Source: Pedobacter sp. MC2016-14 (GTDB taxonomy: Bacteria > Bacteroidota > Bacteroidia > Sphingobacteriales > Sphingobacteriaceae). Taken from it: a DNA stretch of 64,000 bases. Position 1 is the stretch's first letter, and every line of letters starts with the position of its first letter. The notes beneath the pieces were generated by a model. The model was given only the letters and a program-made list of their open reading frames with translations. It was not told the DNA's origin and made no database searches. The position numbers and the translations under genes are program-made. Shown here one piece after another: positions 8,890 through 34,576 of the stretch. Where the stretch lies: the NCBI RefSeq assembly GCF_020991475.1, contig NZ_JAJMPA010000001.1:1674001-1738000 (forward strand). The letters are read 5' to 3'.

Positions 8890-8925
8890 TTTTTTTCTAC
8901 GGAGCATTATAAGAAACATATACAT

Positions 8926-8962
8926 AAAAATGGCCCGCAACTTTAAGTTGCGGGCCATTTTT
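8926..8962. terminator. Bidirectional terminator between accA and the DUF2723 gene
   Basis: A near-perfect palindrome with a GC core (TGGCCCGCAA with TTGCGGGCCA), flanked by AAAAA on one side and TTTTT on the other. It sits between two convergent genes and can serve both. Confidence 0.9.
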
Positions 8963-8981
8963 ATAATAACCTATTTTGGAT

Positions 8982-17072: not shown

Positions 17073-20000
17073 ACCCTCATCATAGACAATAACTGATCGA
17101 CATCAACAGGCTTTGATATGTAATCATTTGCCCCGGCCTCAATACATTTTTCCCTGTCGTTTTTCATTGCTTTTGCAGTAAGTGCAATAATAGGAAGTTT
17201 TGCAAACTCCTTTTTTAGTCTGATGTGGCGCATGGCTTCATAACCGTCCATTTCGGGCATCATGATGTCCATAAGCACTAAATCTATATGATTTACTTCA
17301 TCAAGCTTTTCAATGGCTTCTCTGCCGTTATTGGCAATCACGATGTTAATTTCATAGGCTTGCAAGGCACTGGATAATGCAAAGATGTTTCGCATATCAT
17401 CATCTGTAATCAATACGGTTTTATCTTTAAGCACTTTTTCTATGCTGGTAGAAGCCATTTTTTGGGTAGTAGCTGTGGTAGATTGCCCTTCCTGTTTCAA
17501 CTTATTCATAAACAGGCTTACTTCATCAATTAACCTGTCATTTGATTTGTTAGATTTTAAAACCATAGCCTCCGTATATTGCATGATGTGTGCAATTTTT
17601 GCCTGATCTAATTCCATTGCTGTATTGATGATGACAGGAATGTGTGTTAAGGCCGGCTGTGATTTTATCTGATCTAATAAATCGAAGCCAGAAATATCGG
17701 GTAAGTTTAAATCCAGAATGATACAATCAAAACGCTGTGTTTGTAGAATCTTCAGGGCTTCGTCACCATTAAAAGCTTGCGTTACTTCAACGCCTTTTTC
17801 TGTTAACTGTTCTTTAACCAGCTGACTTTGCAGTTCCTGGTCTTCAATCAGTAGTACTGTTTTAAAATTATACTTGATATGTGCGGCACTCAAGAGATCA
17901 AATGCCTGGTCTAATTCTTCTTTTTCGATTGGTTTTTTTAAGAAACCTATGGCTCCTTCCTGTTGTGCCCTGGAAGTTTTTTCATCTCCGGCCGACATCA
18001 TGTGTACGGGGATATGTTTGGTGTTTGGATTTGATTTTAGCTTTTTTAAGATGGTCCAGCCGTCCATTACAGGCAACATAACATCAAGTACAATCGCATC
18101 CGGAATTTGTTCCTCTGCCATTTTTAGACCTACATCGCCACTAAGGGCAATGATAGCCTTAAACCCTTTTTGTGTTGCGTAGTCTTTAAGTACTTCTGCA
18201 AAATTAAGGTCATCTTCTACAATCAGCAAAGTGAGCTCAGCGTCGCTTCTGGTTTGTTGAACAGGAAGGGCCTCTGCAGGAATTTGTGCTATAAAGTTGT
18301 GTCCCAATATTTCGGCCTCTTCAGGTAGTGATTTGTCCTGCAGCTCTTGTTTTGCAGGGACAAAGAGCGTAAACGTACTTCCTTCTCCGGGAACGCTTTC
18401 TACCTGGATTTCTCCACCAAGTATATAGGCAAGTTCTTTACTAATGGATAAGCCAAGCCCGGTTCCACCGTATTTTCTGCTGGTAGAACCATCTGCTTGT
18501 TGAAAGGCTTCGAAAATTAATTTCTGTTTGTCTTCTGGAATTCCAATCCCTGAGTCTTTAACGGAAATAGAGATGATATCATTCGTGAAATTTTGCAGCT
18601 GTTCTGAATACCATCGTTGGTTTAATTTTGCCTTGCCAATTTGCAAAGTAATCAGACCGTGCTCTGGCGTAAACTTAAATGCATTTGATAAAAGGTTTTT
18701 GATGACCTGCTCTATCCGGGCTAAATCTGTATCTATTGTTGCGGGCAGATTTTCTGCCAGTACTGTTGTAAATTCTATTTTTTTACTCCTTGCAATCTCC
18801 CTGAAAAGTAGATCCATGTTTTTGGTAAGTTCCTCTGGACGAACAGGCTCGATATGAAGATCGATTGTTCCGGATTCGATTTTGGAGAGGTCCAGAATAT
18901 CATTAATCAGGGTAAGTAGATCACTGCCTGCATTGTGGATAACACCAGCATATTTAATCTGATCTTCCGTTAAGTTTTCAGGTTTGTTTTCTTTTAAAAT
19001 CCTGGCCAGGATCAAAATGCTGTTTAAAGGCGTGCGTAGTTCATGGCTCATATTGGCCAGAAATTCTGACTTATATTTACTTGAAATTTCCAGTTCCTCG
19101 GCCTTCATGCTGATGGCCTCTTTAGCTTCATTTATAGATAGGTTGCGTTCTTCTAGTTGTTGCGCTTTTTCTTCCAGTTCTGCATTTGTCTGGCGCAGTT
19201 CTTCCTGCTGAACCCGAAGTTCTTCTTCTGAAGCCTGAAGCTGTTCTGACTTATAAACAAGTTCTTCGTTGGTGGTGCGCAGCTCTTCCTGCTGACTTTC
19301 CAATTCCTCTGCCTGTTGCTGCGTTTGTGTGAATAAGTCACGTAATTGCGCCCTGGCCATGGCACTGTTAATACCAATGCCGATGTTTACCGCAATACGG
19401 GTGAAAAAATCCAGTTCCATGGCTGTTGGCTGTTTAGACAGGCCAATTTCCATTACAGCTATAATTTCGTTCTCAAAAAGAACAGGTAATACAATTAGTG
19501 TATTTGGAGGGGTATTGCCCAGGGATGAACTCACTTTGATGTAATCTGCAGGCAAATCATTGAGTTGTATAATCTGTTTTTCTATGGCTGCTTGTCCTAC
19601 CAAACCTTCACCAAGGCTGATTTCTTTCGATTTTCCTTTTTTATGCTCATAGGCATAAGTACCGGTAAGCACTAAACTATTTGTTTTGCGGTTAAATAGG
19701 TACAGTGAACCAACGCGTGCATTTAAATAGCTGCACATTCTGGAAACTACGTGATTGCAGAGTTCATCTACCTCTTGTTCTCCACGTAAAGACTCATTGA
19801 TGGCTGATGCTCCGGAGAGCATCCAGTTTTTAGCTTCATTTTCAGCAGATACTTTTTCCAGTTCTTCATTGCTTTCCCTGATTCTGAGCTCTGTTGATTT
19901 CTGCTCGTCAAATGTCCTTTTTATATAAGAGGACAGGAACAGGATCAGGCAAAATATGATGAGTGCACTGACCAAGACAATTGCAATGGTTTGCGAACTT

Positions 20001-24506: not shown

Positions 24507-24728
24507 ATGGAAGGAAAGGAACAGGTTAATAATCCGCTTCATGGAAAAACATTAGAGTTTATCCTTAAACAGCTGGTGTGGCATTACGGCTGGGAAGAAC
24601 TGGGGCAGCTGATTAAAATAGCATGTTTTAATAACAATCCTACAATGAATTCCAGTTTAAGATTTCTGCGCAAAACCGACTGGGCACGTAAAAAGGTAGA
24701 AAAACTATACCTCAATACCTTTCATTAG
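24507..24728 (+). CDS. VF530-family small DNA-binding protein
   Basis: 73 residues: [36 protein letters not shown] and [20 protein letters not shown] are the conserved blocks of the VF530 family (DUF2132), a small helical fold with proposed DNA-binding activity known from structures. No partner gene is evident. It is divergent from the DUF2027 gene and followed by a 350-base gene-free region. Confidence 0.85.
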
Positions 24729-24748
24729 TTTTATTTTAGGCAAGCAGA

Positions 24749-24791
24749 AGGTAAATTGAGGTAAAGTTGAAGTTAACCTGAAGTTTTCCTT
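24749..24791 (+). repeat. Left array of degenerate ~11-bp repeats
   Basis: Four units starting AGGTAA, AGGTAA, AGTTAA and AGTTTT at 24749, 24759, 24771 and 24782 (spacings 10, 12, 11), each followed by a TTGA- or CTGA-like end. The same unit appears in opposite orientation at 24889-24932. The 24729-25081 gap has no gene. Confidence 0.65.
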
Positions 24792-24794
24792 ACT

Positions 24795-24842
24795 CTTTAG
24801 TTGCAGTTTCATTGTCTATTCTTTAACGAATGACAACTAAAG
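24795..24842. repeat. Inverted repeat between the two 11-bp arrays
   Basis: CTTTAGTTG (24795-24803) is matched exactly by CAACTAAAG (24834-24842), with about 30 bases between. It sits roughly midway between the outer arrays, so the region has nested symmetry. It could form a stem in RNA or a cruciform; no T-run follows. Confidence 0.6.
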
Positions 24843-24886
24843 GGCAAAGAAAGGTGTACCAATGGGTAATGAAAGGGCAAAGAAGT
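24839..24886 (+). repeat. Direct repeat AAAGGGCAAAGAA, two copies
   Basis: The 13-mer occurs in two copies whose starts are about 34 bases apart (near 24839 and 24873). The first overlaps the right arm of the central inverted repeat. Confidence 0.6.
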
Positions 24887-24888
24887 GT

Positions 24889-24932
24889 TCAGCTTACCTT
24901 CAACTTAACTCCAGCATACTGTCAGCTTACCA
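24889..24932 (-). repeat. Right array of four in-phase 11-bp repeats
   Basis: Four consecutive units of exactly 11 bases: TCAGCTTACCT, TCAACTTAACT, CCAGCATACTG and TCAGCTTACCA. Read on the minus strand, the consensus is AGGTAAGCTGA, the same as the left array. It ends 64 bases before the rpsL -33 element. Confidence 0.75.
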
Positions 24933-24995
24933 TAAAAGTTTCGGATTAAATGTTTAGTAAACCAATTGCCCTGCAGAATTATTTTTGGTAACGTA

Positions 24996-25026
24996 TTGAT
25001 TTTTAAATTACAATGTGCTACCTTTG
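24996..25026 (+). promoter_or_regulatory. Promoter of the rpsL-rpsG-fusA-rpsJ operon
   Basis: TTG at 24996-24998, a 20-base spacer, then TACCTTTG at 25019-25026, a full match to the Bacteroidota consensus. The rpsL ATG is 55 bases further on, leaving a leader with a small hairpin. Confidence 0.8.
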
Positions 25027-25081: not shown

Positions 25082-25495
25082 ATGCCAACCATTCAACAAT
25101 TAGTTAGAAAAGGTAGAGTAGCACTGGAGTTCAAGAGTAAGTCTCCTGCGTTGGACAGCTGTCCACAGCGAAGAGGTGTATGTACACGTGTATATACCAC
25201 TACCCCTAAAAAACCAAACTCAGCAATGCGTAAAGTTGCACGTGTACGTTTAACCAATGGAAAAGAGGTGAATGCCTATATCCCTGGTGAAGGTCACAAT
25301 TTACAAGAGCACTCTATCGTGTTGATTCGTGGTGGTCGTGTTAAAGATTTACCAGGTGTACGTTATCACATCATCCGTGGAGCATTAGATACTTCAGGAG
25401 TTGCTGGTCGTAACCAACGTCGTTCAAAATATGGCACTAAACGTCCTAAGCCAGGACAGGTAGCTGCTGCACCAACTAAAGGTAAAAAGAAATAA
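25082..25495 (+). CDS. rpsL: 30S ribosomal protein S12
   Basis: 137 residues, typical for Bacteroidota. It contains [11 protein letters not shown], the [14 protein letters not shown] streptomycin-region motif (wild-type Lys-Pro-Asn-Ser) and [15 protein letters not shown] with [10 protein letters not shown]. It lies near the decoding centre of the small subunit. First gene of the str operon; a strong SD lies between it and rpsG. Confidence 0.98.
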
Positions 25496-28170: not shown

Positions 28171-28476
28171 ATGAGCCAAAGAATCAGAATTAAATTGAAA
28201 TCTTACGATTACAATCTGGTAGATAAATCTGCTGAGAAAATCGTAAAAACTGTTAAGCCTACGGGTGCAGTTGTTAGCGGACCAATTCCGTTGCCTACAG
28301 AGAAAAAAATCTTTACTGTTTTGCGTTCACCACACGTGAACAAAAAAGCAAGAGAGCAATTTCAATTGTGCGCTTACAAACGTTTGTTAGATATTTATAG
28401 CTCTAACTCTAAAACAGTTGATGCTTTAATGAAACTTGAATTGCCTAGCGGTGTTGAAGTAGAAATTAAAGTTTAA
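28171..28476 (+). CDS. rpsJ: 30S ribosomal protein S10
   Basis: 101 residues. [52 protein letters not shown] and the C-terminal [11 protein letters not shown] are standard for S10. It usually begins the S10 operon directly before rplC, but here a terminator and three unrelated genes separate it from rplC, and it ends the rpsL-fusA unit instead. Confidence 0.98.
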
Positions 28477-28494
28477 TGATATTTAGTACGTCAT

Positions 28495-28531
28495 AAAAAA
28501 ACCTCCCCGAGTAATCGTGGGAGGTTTTTTT
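28495..28531. terminator. Bidirectional terminator after rpsJ
   Basis: Seven A bases and CCTCCC (28495-28507) pair with GGGAGG and seven T bases (28519-28531). It isolates rpsJ from the rest of the S10 genes and also ends the convergent coiled-coil gene. Confidence 0.93.
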
Positions 28532-28545
28532 ATATTTAAGCGGCA

Positions 28546-29190
28546 TTAACCTTTGTTTTTTAGTTCATCAAGCTTATTGCGCTCATCTTGTAATTCTCTG
28601 GCAAGCTTCTTTTCCTTCTCGTTGGCTTTTACTTTATACTTCTGATATTCCTCAGAAATCTCCTCATATAGCCCACTTCGATATTTTGCTTCCTGAATAA
28701 ATTTGACCGAACGGACAATTACTATTGCCAGTGCGAGGGCAAGTATGATGATCAACGACCATACTATGGTGCTGTAGGTACTTTTGCTAAAGGAGATGCC
28801 CAAAAAATTAATTTCATCTAATTTTGCATTAGCACTTGCCAGCGTATTGTCTTTACCGGCCAATTGCGCTCTGAGCGTATCTATTGTTTGCTTGTGTTCA
28901 GACAGTAAGCTTTTAGATTGGGAGAGTTGTTTGCGTTCTGTTCTAAGGGTATCGCTCAGGCTTTTCCAAAAGCTGGAAAGCCTTGCGGGGTTAACGAGTT
29001 TATATCCATTAAGTGTTTTGGATTTTGAAAGTACAGACTGGTATTGTCCGTTTAAACTAAGATCTTCTTTGGTGGTAAGGGCTACCGGAATATCCATTGT
29101 TGGATTTCTAAGGGTATCTTTTACTTGTGCTGTTGCAACCCCTGTTGTTAAAAGTGAAATGCTGATGATAGATCGTATCGTTCTGTTCAT
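28546..29190 (-). CDS. Coiled-coil membrane protein with signal peptide (uncharacterised)
   Basis: 214 residues. A signal peptide (first about 21 residues, ending VATAQ) is followed by a periplasmic segment, a coiled coil (about 78-125), one transmembrane helix (about 141-161; TIVWSLIIILALALAIVIV) and a charged C-terminal coil (about 175-214). Similar proteins in Flavobacteriia and Sphingobacteriia are, as I recall, often auto-labelled tRNA (guanine-N1)-methyltransferase, but no knotted methyltransferase fold or SAM motif is present. I would call it a hypothetical single-span envelope protein. It lies convergent to rpsJ, in the gap that breaks the S10 operon. Confidence 0.75.
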   Translation of the reverse strand: MNRTIRSIISISLLTTGVATAQVKDTLRNPTMDIPVALTTKEDLSLNGQYQSVLSKSKTLNGYKLVNPARLSSFWKSLSDTLRTERKQLSQSKSLLSEHKQTIDTLRAQLAGKDNTLASANAKLDEINFLGISFSKSTYSTIVWSLIIILALALAIVIVRSVKFIQEAKYRSGLYEEISEEYQKYKVKANEKEKKLARELQDERNKLDELKNKG

Positions 29191-33715: not shown

Positions 33716-34576
33716 ATGGGACAAAAAGCACATCCAATAGGTAACAGGTTAGGAATCGTGAGAGGTTGGGATTCTAACTGGTTCGGTGGCAACAACTATG
33801 CTGATAAATTAGTTGAGGACGAAAAAATAAGAAAATACCTTTCTGTACGTATCGCTAAAGGCGGCGTATCTAAAGTTGTAATTGAGCGTACATTAAAACG
33901 TATCACTGTAACTATTCACACTGCCCGTCCGGGTATCGTGATTGGTAAAGCTGGTGCTGAGGTGGATAAGATCAAAGAAGAGTTGAAGAAATTGACTAAA
34001 AAGGAAATTCAAATCAACATTTTTGAAATTAAACGTCCTGAACTTGATGCTCAATTGGTAGCTGAAGGTGTTGCAAAACAGTTAGAAGCAAGGATTTCTT
34101 TCCGTAGAGCAATGAAATCTACTATCGCATCAACTATGCGTATGGGCGCTGAAGGTATCAAAATTATGACCTCTGGTCGTTTAGGTGGTGCTGAGATGGC
34201 ACGTAGCGAGCAGTATAAAGAAGGAAGAATTCCTTTGCATACTTTCCGTGCAGACATCGACTATGCATTGGCTGAAGCATTAACAACTTATGGTAAAATA
34301 GGTGTTAAAGTATGGATCTGTAAAGGTGAGGTTTACGGCAAACGTGACCTTTCTCCAAACATTGGCGCAGCTAACAATGCTCCAGGTAAAGGTGGCAGAC
34401 CAGAAGGTGCTTTTGGCGGTAGAGACAGAGATAACCGTGGCGGTGGCGACAGACGTAACGATAACCGCAATGGCGGTCCTCGTGGCGGAAGAGGCCCAGG
34501 TCAAGGTGGTCCTGGTCAAGGCGGTCAGAGAGACAACAGAGGTGGAAACACTCAGAACAGAGGTCCACGCAAATAA
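33716..34576 (+). CDS. rpsC: 30S ribosomal protein S3 with long Gly/Arg-rich tail
   Basis: 286 residues. Residues 1-217 are a normal S3: [13 protein letters not shown], the KH motif [28 protein letters not shown] and the [14 protein letters not shown] end. Residues 218-286 are an extra tail dominated by Gly, Arg, Asn, Asp, Gln and Pro with repeated RGG/GGR/GQGG-like steps. Such tails are disordered and bind RNA in other proteins. S3 forms part of the mRNA entry channel and helicase. Shorter S3 proteins are usual, around 210-240. Confidence 0.97.

Follow-up and report, generated by a model that had tools for sequence, protein, structure and literature searches.

Arrays of 11-bp direct repeats occur in the parC centromere of plasmid R1, in which two such sets, within about 160 bp, are bound by ParR at one dimer per helical turn; the site adjoins its own parMR genes and is autoregulated. 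Among dispersed bacterial repeats, REP/BIME elements (the GTAG and CGTC superfamilies) are intergenic palindromes of 20-40 bp with a tetranucleotide tag and a link to RAYT (PMC3733652). The BrickBuilt MITE of Porphyromonas gingivalis, at about 19 copies per genome, consists of 23-bp direct tandem units with a leader, a tail and small inverted ends (PMC4596501), and the TAACTGA heptamers of Beggiatoaceae, Cyanobacteria and some Bacteroidetes keep one fixed sequence, nearly perfect and in direct orientation (PMC4679880). A period of about 11 bp is also common in bacterial genomes at large and is usually taken to reflect the helical pitch of DNA under negative supercoiling (Herzel 1999; Lehmann 2014, PMC4132750). 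It is strong in two cyanobacterial transposons, for which a role in the transpososome has been suggested (PMC4132750); a contrary study reports selection on motifs of 10-11 bp that do not themselves bend the DNA (PMC7537859).

The locus described here lies in a stretch of 64,000 nucleotides of Pedobacter sp. MC2016-14 (the window), between the gene of a VF530-family protein and rpsL. Its features are as follows.

24507-24728, plus strand: gene of a VF530-family protein, left neighbour, context outside the element (Pfam PF09905, E 3.3e-33)
24734-24937, no strand: whole imperfect palindrome, outer extent from the gapped self-inverted match
24742-24926, plus strand: core ladder made up of seventeen 11-bp slots, of which the final one has 9 bp in the alignment, from the slot consensus of ten genome copies (alignment A3)
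24749-24791, plus strand: left array of AGGTAAGTTGA-type units, from sequence reading and lag-11 identity
24749-24758, plus strand: left-array unit AGGTAAATTG (10 bp)
24759-24769, plus strand: left-array unit AGGTAAAGTTG
24770-24780, plus strand: left-array unit AAGTTAACCTG
24781-24791, plus strand: left-array unit AAGTTTTCCTT
24795-24842, no strand: central inverted repeat, CTTTAGTTG at 24795-24803 and CAACTAAAG at 24834-24842, inner TTGTC/GACAA
24839-24851 and 24872-24884, plus strand: exact 13-bp direct repeat AAAGGGCAAAGAA, spaced by 33 bp (3 x 11)
24889-24932, minus strand: right array of four 11-bp units, from sequence reading and lag-11 identity; the minus-strand consensus AGGTAAGCTGA is the reverse complement of the first unit, TCAGCTTACCT
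24889-24899, minus strand: right-array unit TCAGCTTACCT
24900-24910, minus strand: right-array unit TCAACTTAACT
24911-24921, minus strand: right-array unit CCAGCATACTG
24922-24932, minus strand: right-array unit TCAGCTTACCA
24996-25026, plus strand: promoter-like TTGA (24996-24999) and TACCTTTG (25019-25026) of the rpsL operon, context, kept in relatives
25082-25495, plus strand: rpsL, ribosomal protein S12, right neighbour, context (Pfam PF00164, E 3.3e-42)

The sequence-only reading of this interval had described four minus-strand 11-bp units, a looser plus-strand array, and a hairpin and a 13-bp direct repeat between them. On re-reading the sequence, the coordinates and units of both arrays proved right. 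The lag-11 identity is 0.65 in the left arm (24738-24791) and 0.65 in the right arm (24888-24932), each with 0/5000 dinucleotide shuffles. The hairpin and the direct repeat are present as well, though not as things apart from the arrays; since the 13-bp repeat is spaced by exactly three units, the separately noted features form one ladder. The middle part of the element alone has a lag-11 identity of 0.51 (0/5000 dinucleotide shuffles), and the whole element 0.54 (z 8.5, 0/2000), dinucleotide shuffles giving 0.26; a value of 0.54 was attained by no shuffle of the element at any lag from 5 to 30. When the 64-kb window was scanned at lag 11, at least 21 of 33 matches were found at three places only, two being the arms of the element and the third a ribosomal-protein gene region. 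Head-to-tail units of period 11, a trait of minisatellites, occupy the 17 slots, though they are degenerate and switch orientation at the centre. The observation is confirmed and is larger than first described, the ladder taking in the centre and having sister copies elsewhere in the genome; these copies and the shuffles together rule out a chance origin. Elsewhere in the window, a 24-bp unit (TGGCGGTAGAGACAGACATAACCG) occurs in two near-copies at 34414-34459, and the long palindromes at 28452-28570 and 8924-8964, with strong central stems with T-runs or near-perfect arms, are probably ordinary terminators.

A DNA similarity search returned one clear relative, 66% identical along 169 bp, together with partial matches to others, and inspection of these places revealed the same layout at three further loci. 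A sequence-only family model built from four copies and run on the 5.04-Mb genome recovered ten full-length elements (E 1e-40 to 1e-9 on the best strand), with nothing scoring between about 1e-8 and 0.14. Model R2 matches the window element at 24737-24949 on the plus strand (E 1.2e-39) and at 24728-24933 on the minus strand (E 4.4e-23), and all ten copies match the opposite strand too or fold back on themselves, as a palindrome does. By inspection of reading frames, every copy is intergenic, between unrelated genes in tandem, convergent and divergent settings; the neighbours include VF530/rpsL, an AraC-type regulator, an M16-type peptidase, methionyl-tRNA formyltransferase, YceI, GAPDH and others, named from our reading of the translations save for VF530 and S12, which are Pfam assignments. 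Neither simple DNA similarity nor an 18-mer pattern retrieved more than part of the family, and four matches to the pattern (L041, L043, L044 and L045) were dismissed as chance, lying inside genes. A 156-bp palindrome with long perfect ends (TGCGTTCGGCATGCGTATATACCATC) at L100:18143-18298 of the same genome is weakly 11-periodic and of a different kind.

The slot consensus of the ten-copy alignment reads as follows.

Slots 1-6: AAGccgAAGGA AAgTTgAAGGA AAGTtGAAGGt AACCGGAAGtT TnCcTCGcttT TTAnTCGgaGT
Slots 7-12: TTcATCGGcgT TTcTTCGcTgA tagaCGAacAA AcaCCGAagAA ActaCgactAA AngaCaAtnAA
Slots 13-17: AGggcgAngaA AcCTTCaACTT ACCtCCaAGTT aCCTTCAAcTT ActnTCagc

Pairwise identity among the copies averages 0.53. 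Seven of the cores measure 185 bp and the other three 184, 186 and 196 bp, the last being 185+11. The alignment holds one insertion of exactly 11 bp and otherwise two 1-bp indels only, a scarcity that may in part be ascertainment because the family model may favour ungapped copies. Its autocorrelation reaches 0.49 at lag 11, most other lags giving about 0.25, and its inverted-repeat registers give four peaks, 11 apart, several of them equally good. The outermost bases are weakly conserved, and each copy is palindromic throughout. In other genomes of the genus, BLAST with one copy as query against 60 genomes gave mostly chance matches; a ten-copy model reached E of at most 1e-3 in 38 of the genus genomes other than its own, much more weakly than at home (1e-8 vs 1e-41).

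Set against the described systems, the element resembles BrickBuilt in its host phylum (Bacteroidota), in being dispersed, always intergenic and non-coding, and in placing a minisatellite within an element with inverted ends; it differs, by the published description, in being a full-length palindrome and an 11-bp helical ladder. With fixed-unit short tandem repeats (the LSSRs of Mrazek 2007 and TAACTGA) it shares a mostly intergenic position, a fixed unit length and a sporadic occurrence between lineages, but, unlike the heptamers, it preserves its 11-bp period and palindromic layout under a changing unit sequence. The genome-wide period of about 11 bp is likewise mainly one of A/T vs G/C in stretches of about 100-200 bp (PMC4132750), yet it is weak and statistical, whereas the element belongs to a discrete palindromic sequence family. 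The two blocks of 11-bp units in parC of R1 are a precedent for how such a ladder may be read, although the present element has ten chromosomal copies and its repeat sequence and orientation differ; no parR-parM genes were found beside the copies, the neighbours being VF530 and rpsL at the window copy (Pfam) and other unrelated genes elsewhere (reading frames). The sequence-only reading had not recognised a described element here, and no published account of 11-bp palindromic arrays in Pedobacter or Bacteroidetes was found in the open-access library searched. The element is a real variant of intergenic palindromic repeats that is undescribed in the open-access literature searched.

Period-11 islands recur in the bacterial family. 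An unbiased lag scan of about 2.0 Mb gave non-low-complexity islands of period 11 at 3 places in 464 kb of the own genome, 7 in 1.12 Mb from the genus and 2 in 400 kb from the family's other genera, as compared with 0-1 islands at periods 8, 10, 13, 16, 17 and 19. All 12 islands are intergenic, in stretches whose coding fraction is mostly about 0.8-0.9; their unit sequences vary by place, and most lie within long palindromes. Across 1.77 Mb sampled from elsewhere in the phylum there was one period-11 island, and arrays of period 7 and 8, several of them palindromic, were numerous and predominated. The repeat period seems to be lineage-dependent, 7/8 elsewhere in the phylum and 11 in Sphingobacteriaceae. 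Examples of intergenic-looking period 7/8 arrays in other Bacteroidota are L240:15070-15168, L288:7401-7510, L268:7538-7639 and L263:1-81, and some such arrays are palindromic, e.g., GGAGAATGGAGAATGGAGAATG...CTCAATTCTCAATTCTC. Outside Sphingobacteriaceae, a clean period-11 palindromic array of AACCCTATTCA-type units also adjoins rpsL in a Candidatus Odoribacter faecigallinarum MAG (L244:637-741). In Sphingobacterium yanglingense, a period-11 and a period-10 array lie close together downstream of the rpsL region (L223:17049-17112 and 17230-17291).

The array at the rpsL site of one relative (G138) belongs to a second, likewise dispersed, high-copy family with 30, 18, 10, 10 and 3 matches in five species; its copies L343-L372 come from G059, G112, G132, G138 and G139. 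Its core, GCTTACCCGCCTTTAACACGCTTTCAAGCGGG...ACCGAGTATAGACCGAGTATAG, is unrelated in sequence to the window family; about 90 bp long, it is nearly gap-free save for exact 11-bp insertions or losses, and several copies have GACAGCTT...AAGCTGTC ends. Element ends are not sharply conserved between the families. Orthologous copies exist in the second family and seem to be of old, vertical descent, a point against a MITE-like reading; there is little homogenisation of units within copies. Copies in G059 are 0.91 alike among themselves, as compared with 0.82-0.84 to orthologues in other species with orthologous flanks, a comparison open to bias because its loci were the best matches to a G138 query. 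Judged by these identities, the second family in G059 is in concerted evolution, with genome-specific homogenisation. In G132, a nearly identical putative transposase-like frame (MKQDFPKLGIRLLCRLFGKTRHAYYD...) stands about 50 bp from two copies, in the right flanks of L359 and L371; it is probably an IS copy inserted near by, maybe by chance.

The sequence-only reading had proposed an array of protein sites upstream of rpsL, or bending. TTGA indeed starts 63 bases past the array end (64 in the sequence-only reading), and TTGA and TACCTTTG, which we take to be the -33/-7 elements by Bacteroidota promoter rules, are conserved in relatives. The conservation holds also where the element is absent: at the orthologous locus the window array was not found in relatives, which carry either no array or different 11-bp palindromes. 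Three (G079, G015 and G028) have a short spacer with the promoter conserved, seven (G046, G059, G138, G112, G132, G091 and G118) have other 11-bp arrays unrelated in sequence, and G100 has an array resembling an element elsewhere in G083. When the rpsL interval of five near relatives was aligned to look for an exact empty site, the flanks proved too diverged for a clean boundary to be drawn. The array being absent from relatives and kin of about 190 bp occurring at nine other intergenic places beside unrelated genes, the outcome that the sequence-only reading had named as refuting an rpsL regulator was observed. The rpsL-regulator claim was rejected, and a dedicated regulatory array of this operon is very improbable. 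The helical phasing is strongly supported and the tie of the array to rpsL is not; should this copy affect rpsL at all, the effect would be incidental to its landing site. The dispersed, intergenic and palindromic copies also recall REPs mobilised by a RAYT (Y1) transposase, but at about 185-200 bp they exceed the 20-40 bp of such elements, and Y1_Tnp (PF01797) had 0 matches in the own genome, 99.6% complete, with positive controls. REP/BIME with RAYT was rejected for lack of this transposase, and that origin almost certainly does not apply. A transcribed palindrome might instead act as a long dsRNA hairpin in mRNA stability, termination or as a small RNA. Single copies do fold well (-53 kcal/mol for 210 nt), 10/33 predicted pairs in the first four copies carry compensatory changes, and a turn of A-form RNA likewise takes 11 bp. 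The compensatory signal was not sustained as one structure, however: the RNAalifold consensus kept 6 pairs in ten window-family copies and 4, with 0 compensatory, in 22 second-family copies, and several inverted registers are equally good. An RNA stem should show G.U mismatches outnumbering A.C on the transcribed strand, and the arms in their two best registers have G.T 69 vs A.C 75 and 82 vs 91. No Rfam family was found in the window element beyond a sub-threshold microRNA match, taken as chance, and the occurrence of copies between divergent, convergent and tandem genes alike argues against terminators, bidirectional ones included. One conserved RNA hairpin is thus unsupported and an RNA element quite improbable; with neither G.U excess nor shared fold, the palindromic symmetry is best seen as a property of the DNA.

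When slots were exchanged at random between the ten copies and identity was recomputed, lag-11 identity fell from 0.493 to 0.451 (z 5.1; baseline about 0.25). Two further direct lags (22 and 33) and four inverted registers (164, 175, 186 and 197) show the same within-copy excess, which all but vanishes off the 11-bp grid. By this test, most of the periodicity is in the shared slot consensus and a smaller part is homogenisation of units within copies, in both orientations; such copy-specific unit dialects argue against one strict motif read by a single sequence-specific regulator. The element could be a functionless palindromic minisatellite, its units both generated and kept similar by replication slippage and by template switching inside the hairpin, in natural steps of one helical turn, and its family spread by chance or ancient transposition. 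Consistent with such an origin, units of a copy resemble each other in every 11-bp register, direct or inverted, there are indels of exactly 11 bp, and unit sequence varies by locus and by species; fixed-unit simple repeats are common in bacteria and attributed to polymerase slippage (Mrazek 2007, as cited in PMC4679880). However, most of the periodicity resides in the consensus of ten dispersed copies, a neutral relic at 53% identity should show many odd-sized indels rather than two of 1 bp, and genome-specific homogenisation between loci needs more than local slippage. We therefore consider a purely mutational product somewhat unlikely.

On balance, the window element is probably one copy of a dispersed, non-coding palindromic MITE-like repeat family that acts as double-stranded DNA. 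Short (about 100-600 bp), non-coding, dispersed copies are typical of MITEs, and ten such intergenic copies of about 185 bp are present. A degenerate mobile element with inverted ends, the alternative offered in the sequence-only reading, is the best fit to these copies, although its usual marks were not seen: no target duplication of constant length or position was found in the flanks of the ten copies (the longest words that flanks share measure 4-7 nt and average 5.5, as compared with 4.7 in mismatched flanks), and no transposase was seen beside any of them among the neighbouring reading frames inspected. Each copy comprises 17 consecutive 11-bp units, the left half in one orientation and the right half in the opposite one, so that similar sequence returns to one side of the helix with every turn. 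The 11-bp power is greater for A/T vs G/C than for R/Y and K/M in three independent sets, A/T and G/C alternating, as expected for phased bending or deformability. Together with the precedent of 11-bp transposons, this favours a helical phase that serves the assembly of a transposase or bending protein. The constant phase may be kept by a protein that binds or bends the DNA once per turn, either a transposase assembling on the ends or a nucleoid-type DNA-bending protein. Template switching in 11-bp register, slipped or inverted, could account for the likeness of units within a copy, and copies presumably spread by transposition with the transposase supplied in trans.

These findings suggest that an array adjoining a promoter need not regulate that promoter. 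At about 53% identity the copies escape ordinary repeat finders and BLAST, most of them having needed a family model, while helical phase and palindromic symmetry are kept as the sequence drifts. More broadly, Sphingobacteriaceae might hold a class of palindromic helical ladders, comprising many sequence-unrelated families alike in architecture alone, with about 8-17 exact 11-bp units, two-fold symmetric and with A/T and G/C in antiphase. Register-locked template switching would homogenise the units of a copy, and units would also be homogenised between copies of one genome, their phase read by a bending or bridging protein and the ladders serving as supercoil-apex or nucleoid anchors between genes; taken as a whole, this proposal is speculative and unlikely. 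If the phase is selected, the elements would give a direct handle on the purpose of the period of about 11 bp in bacterial DNA, and if template switching produced them, they would be a natural record of that process.
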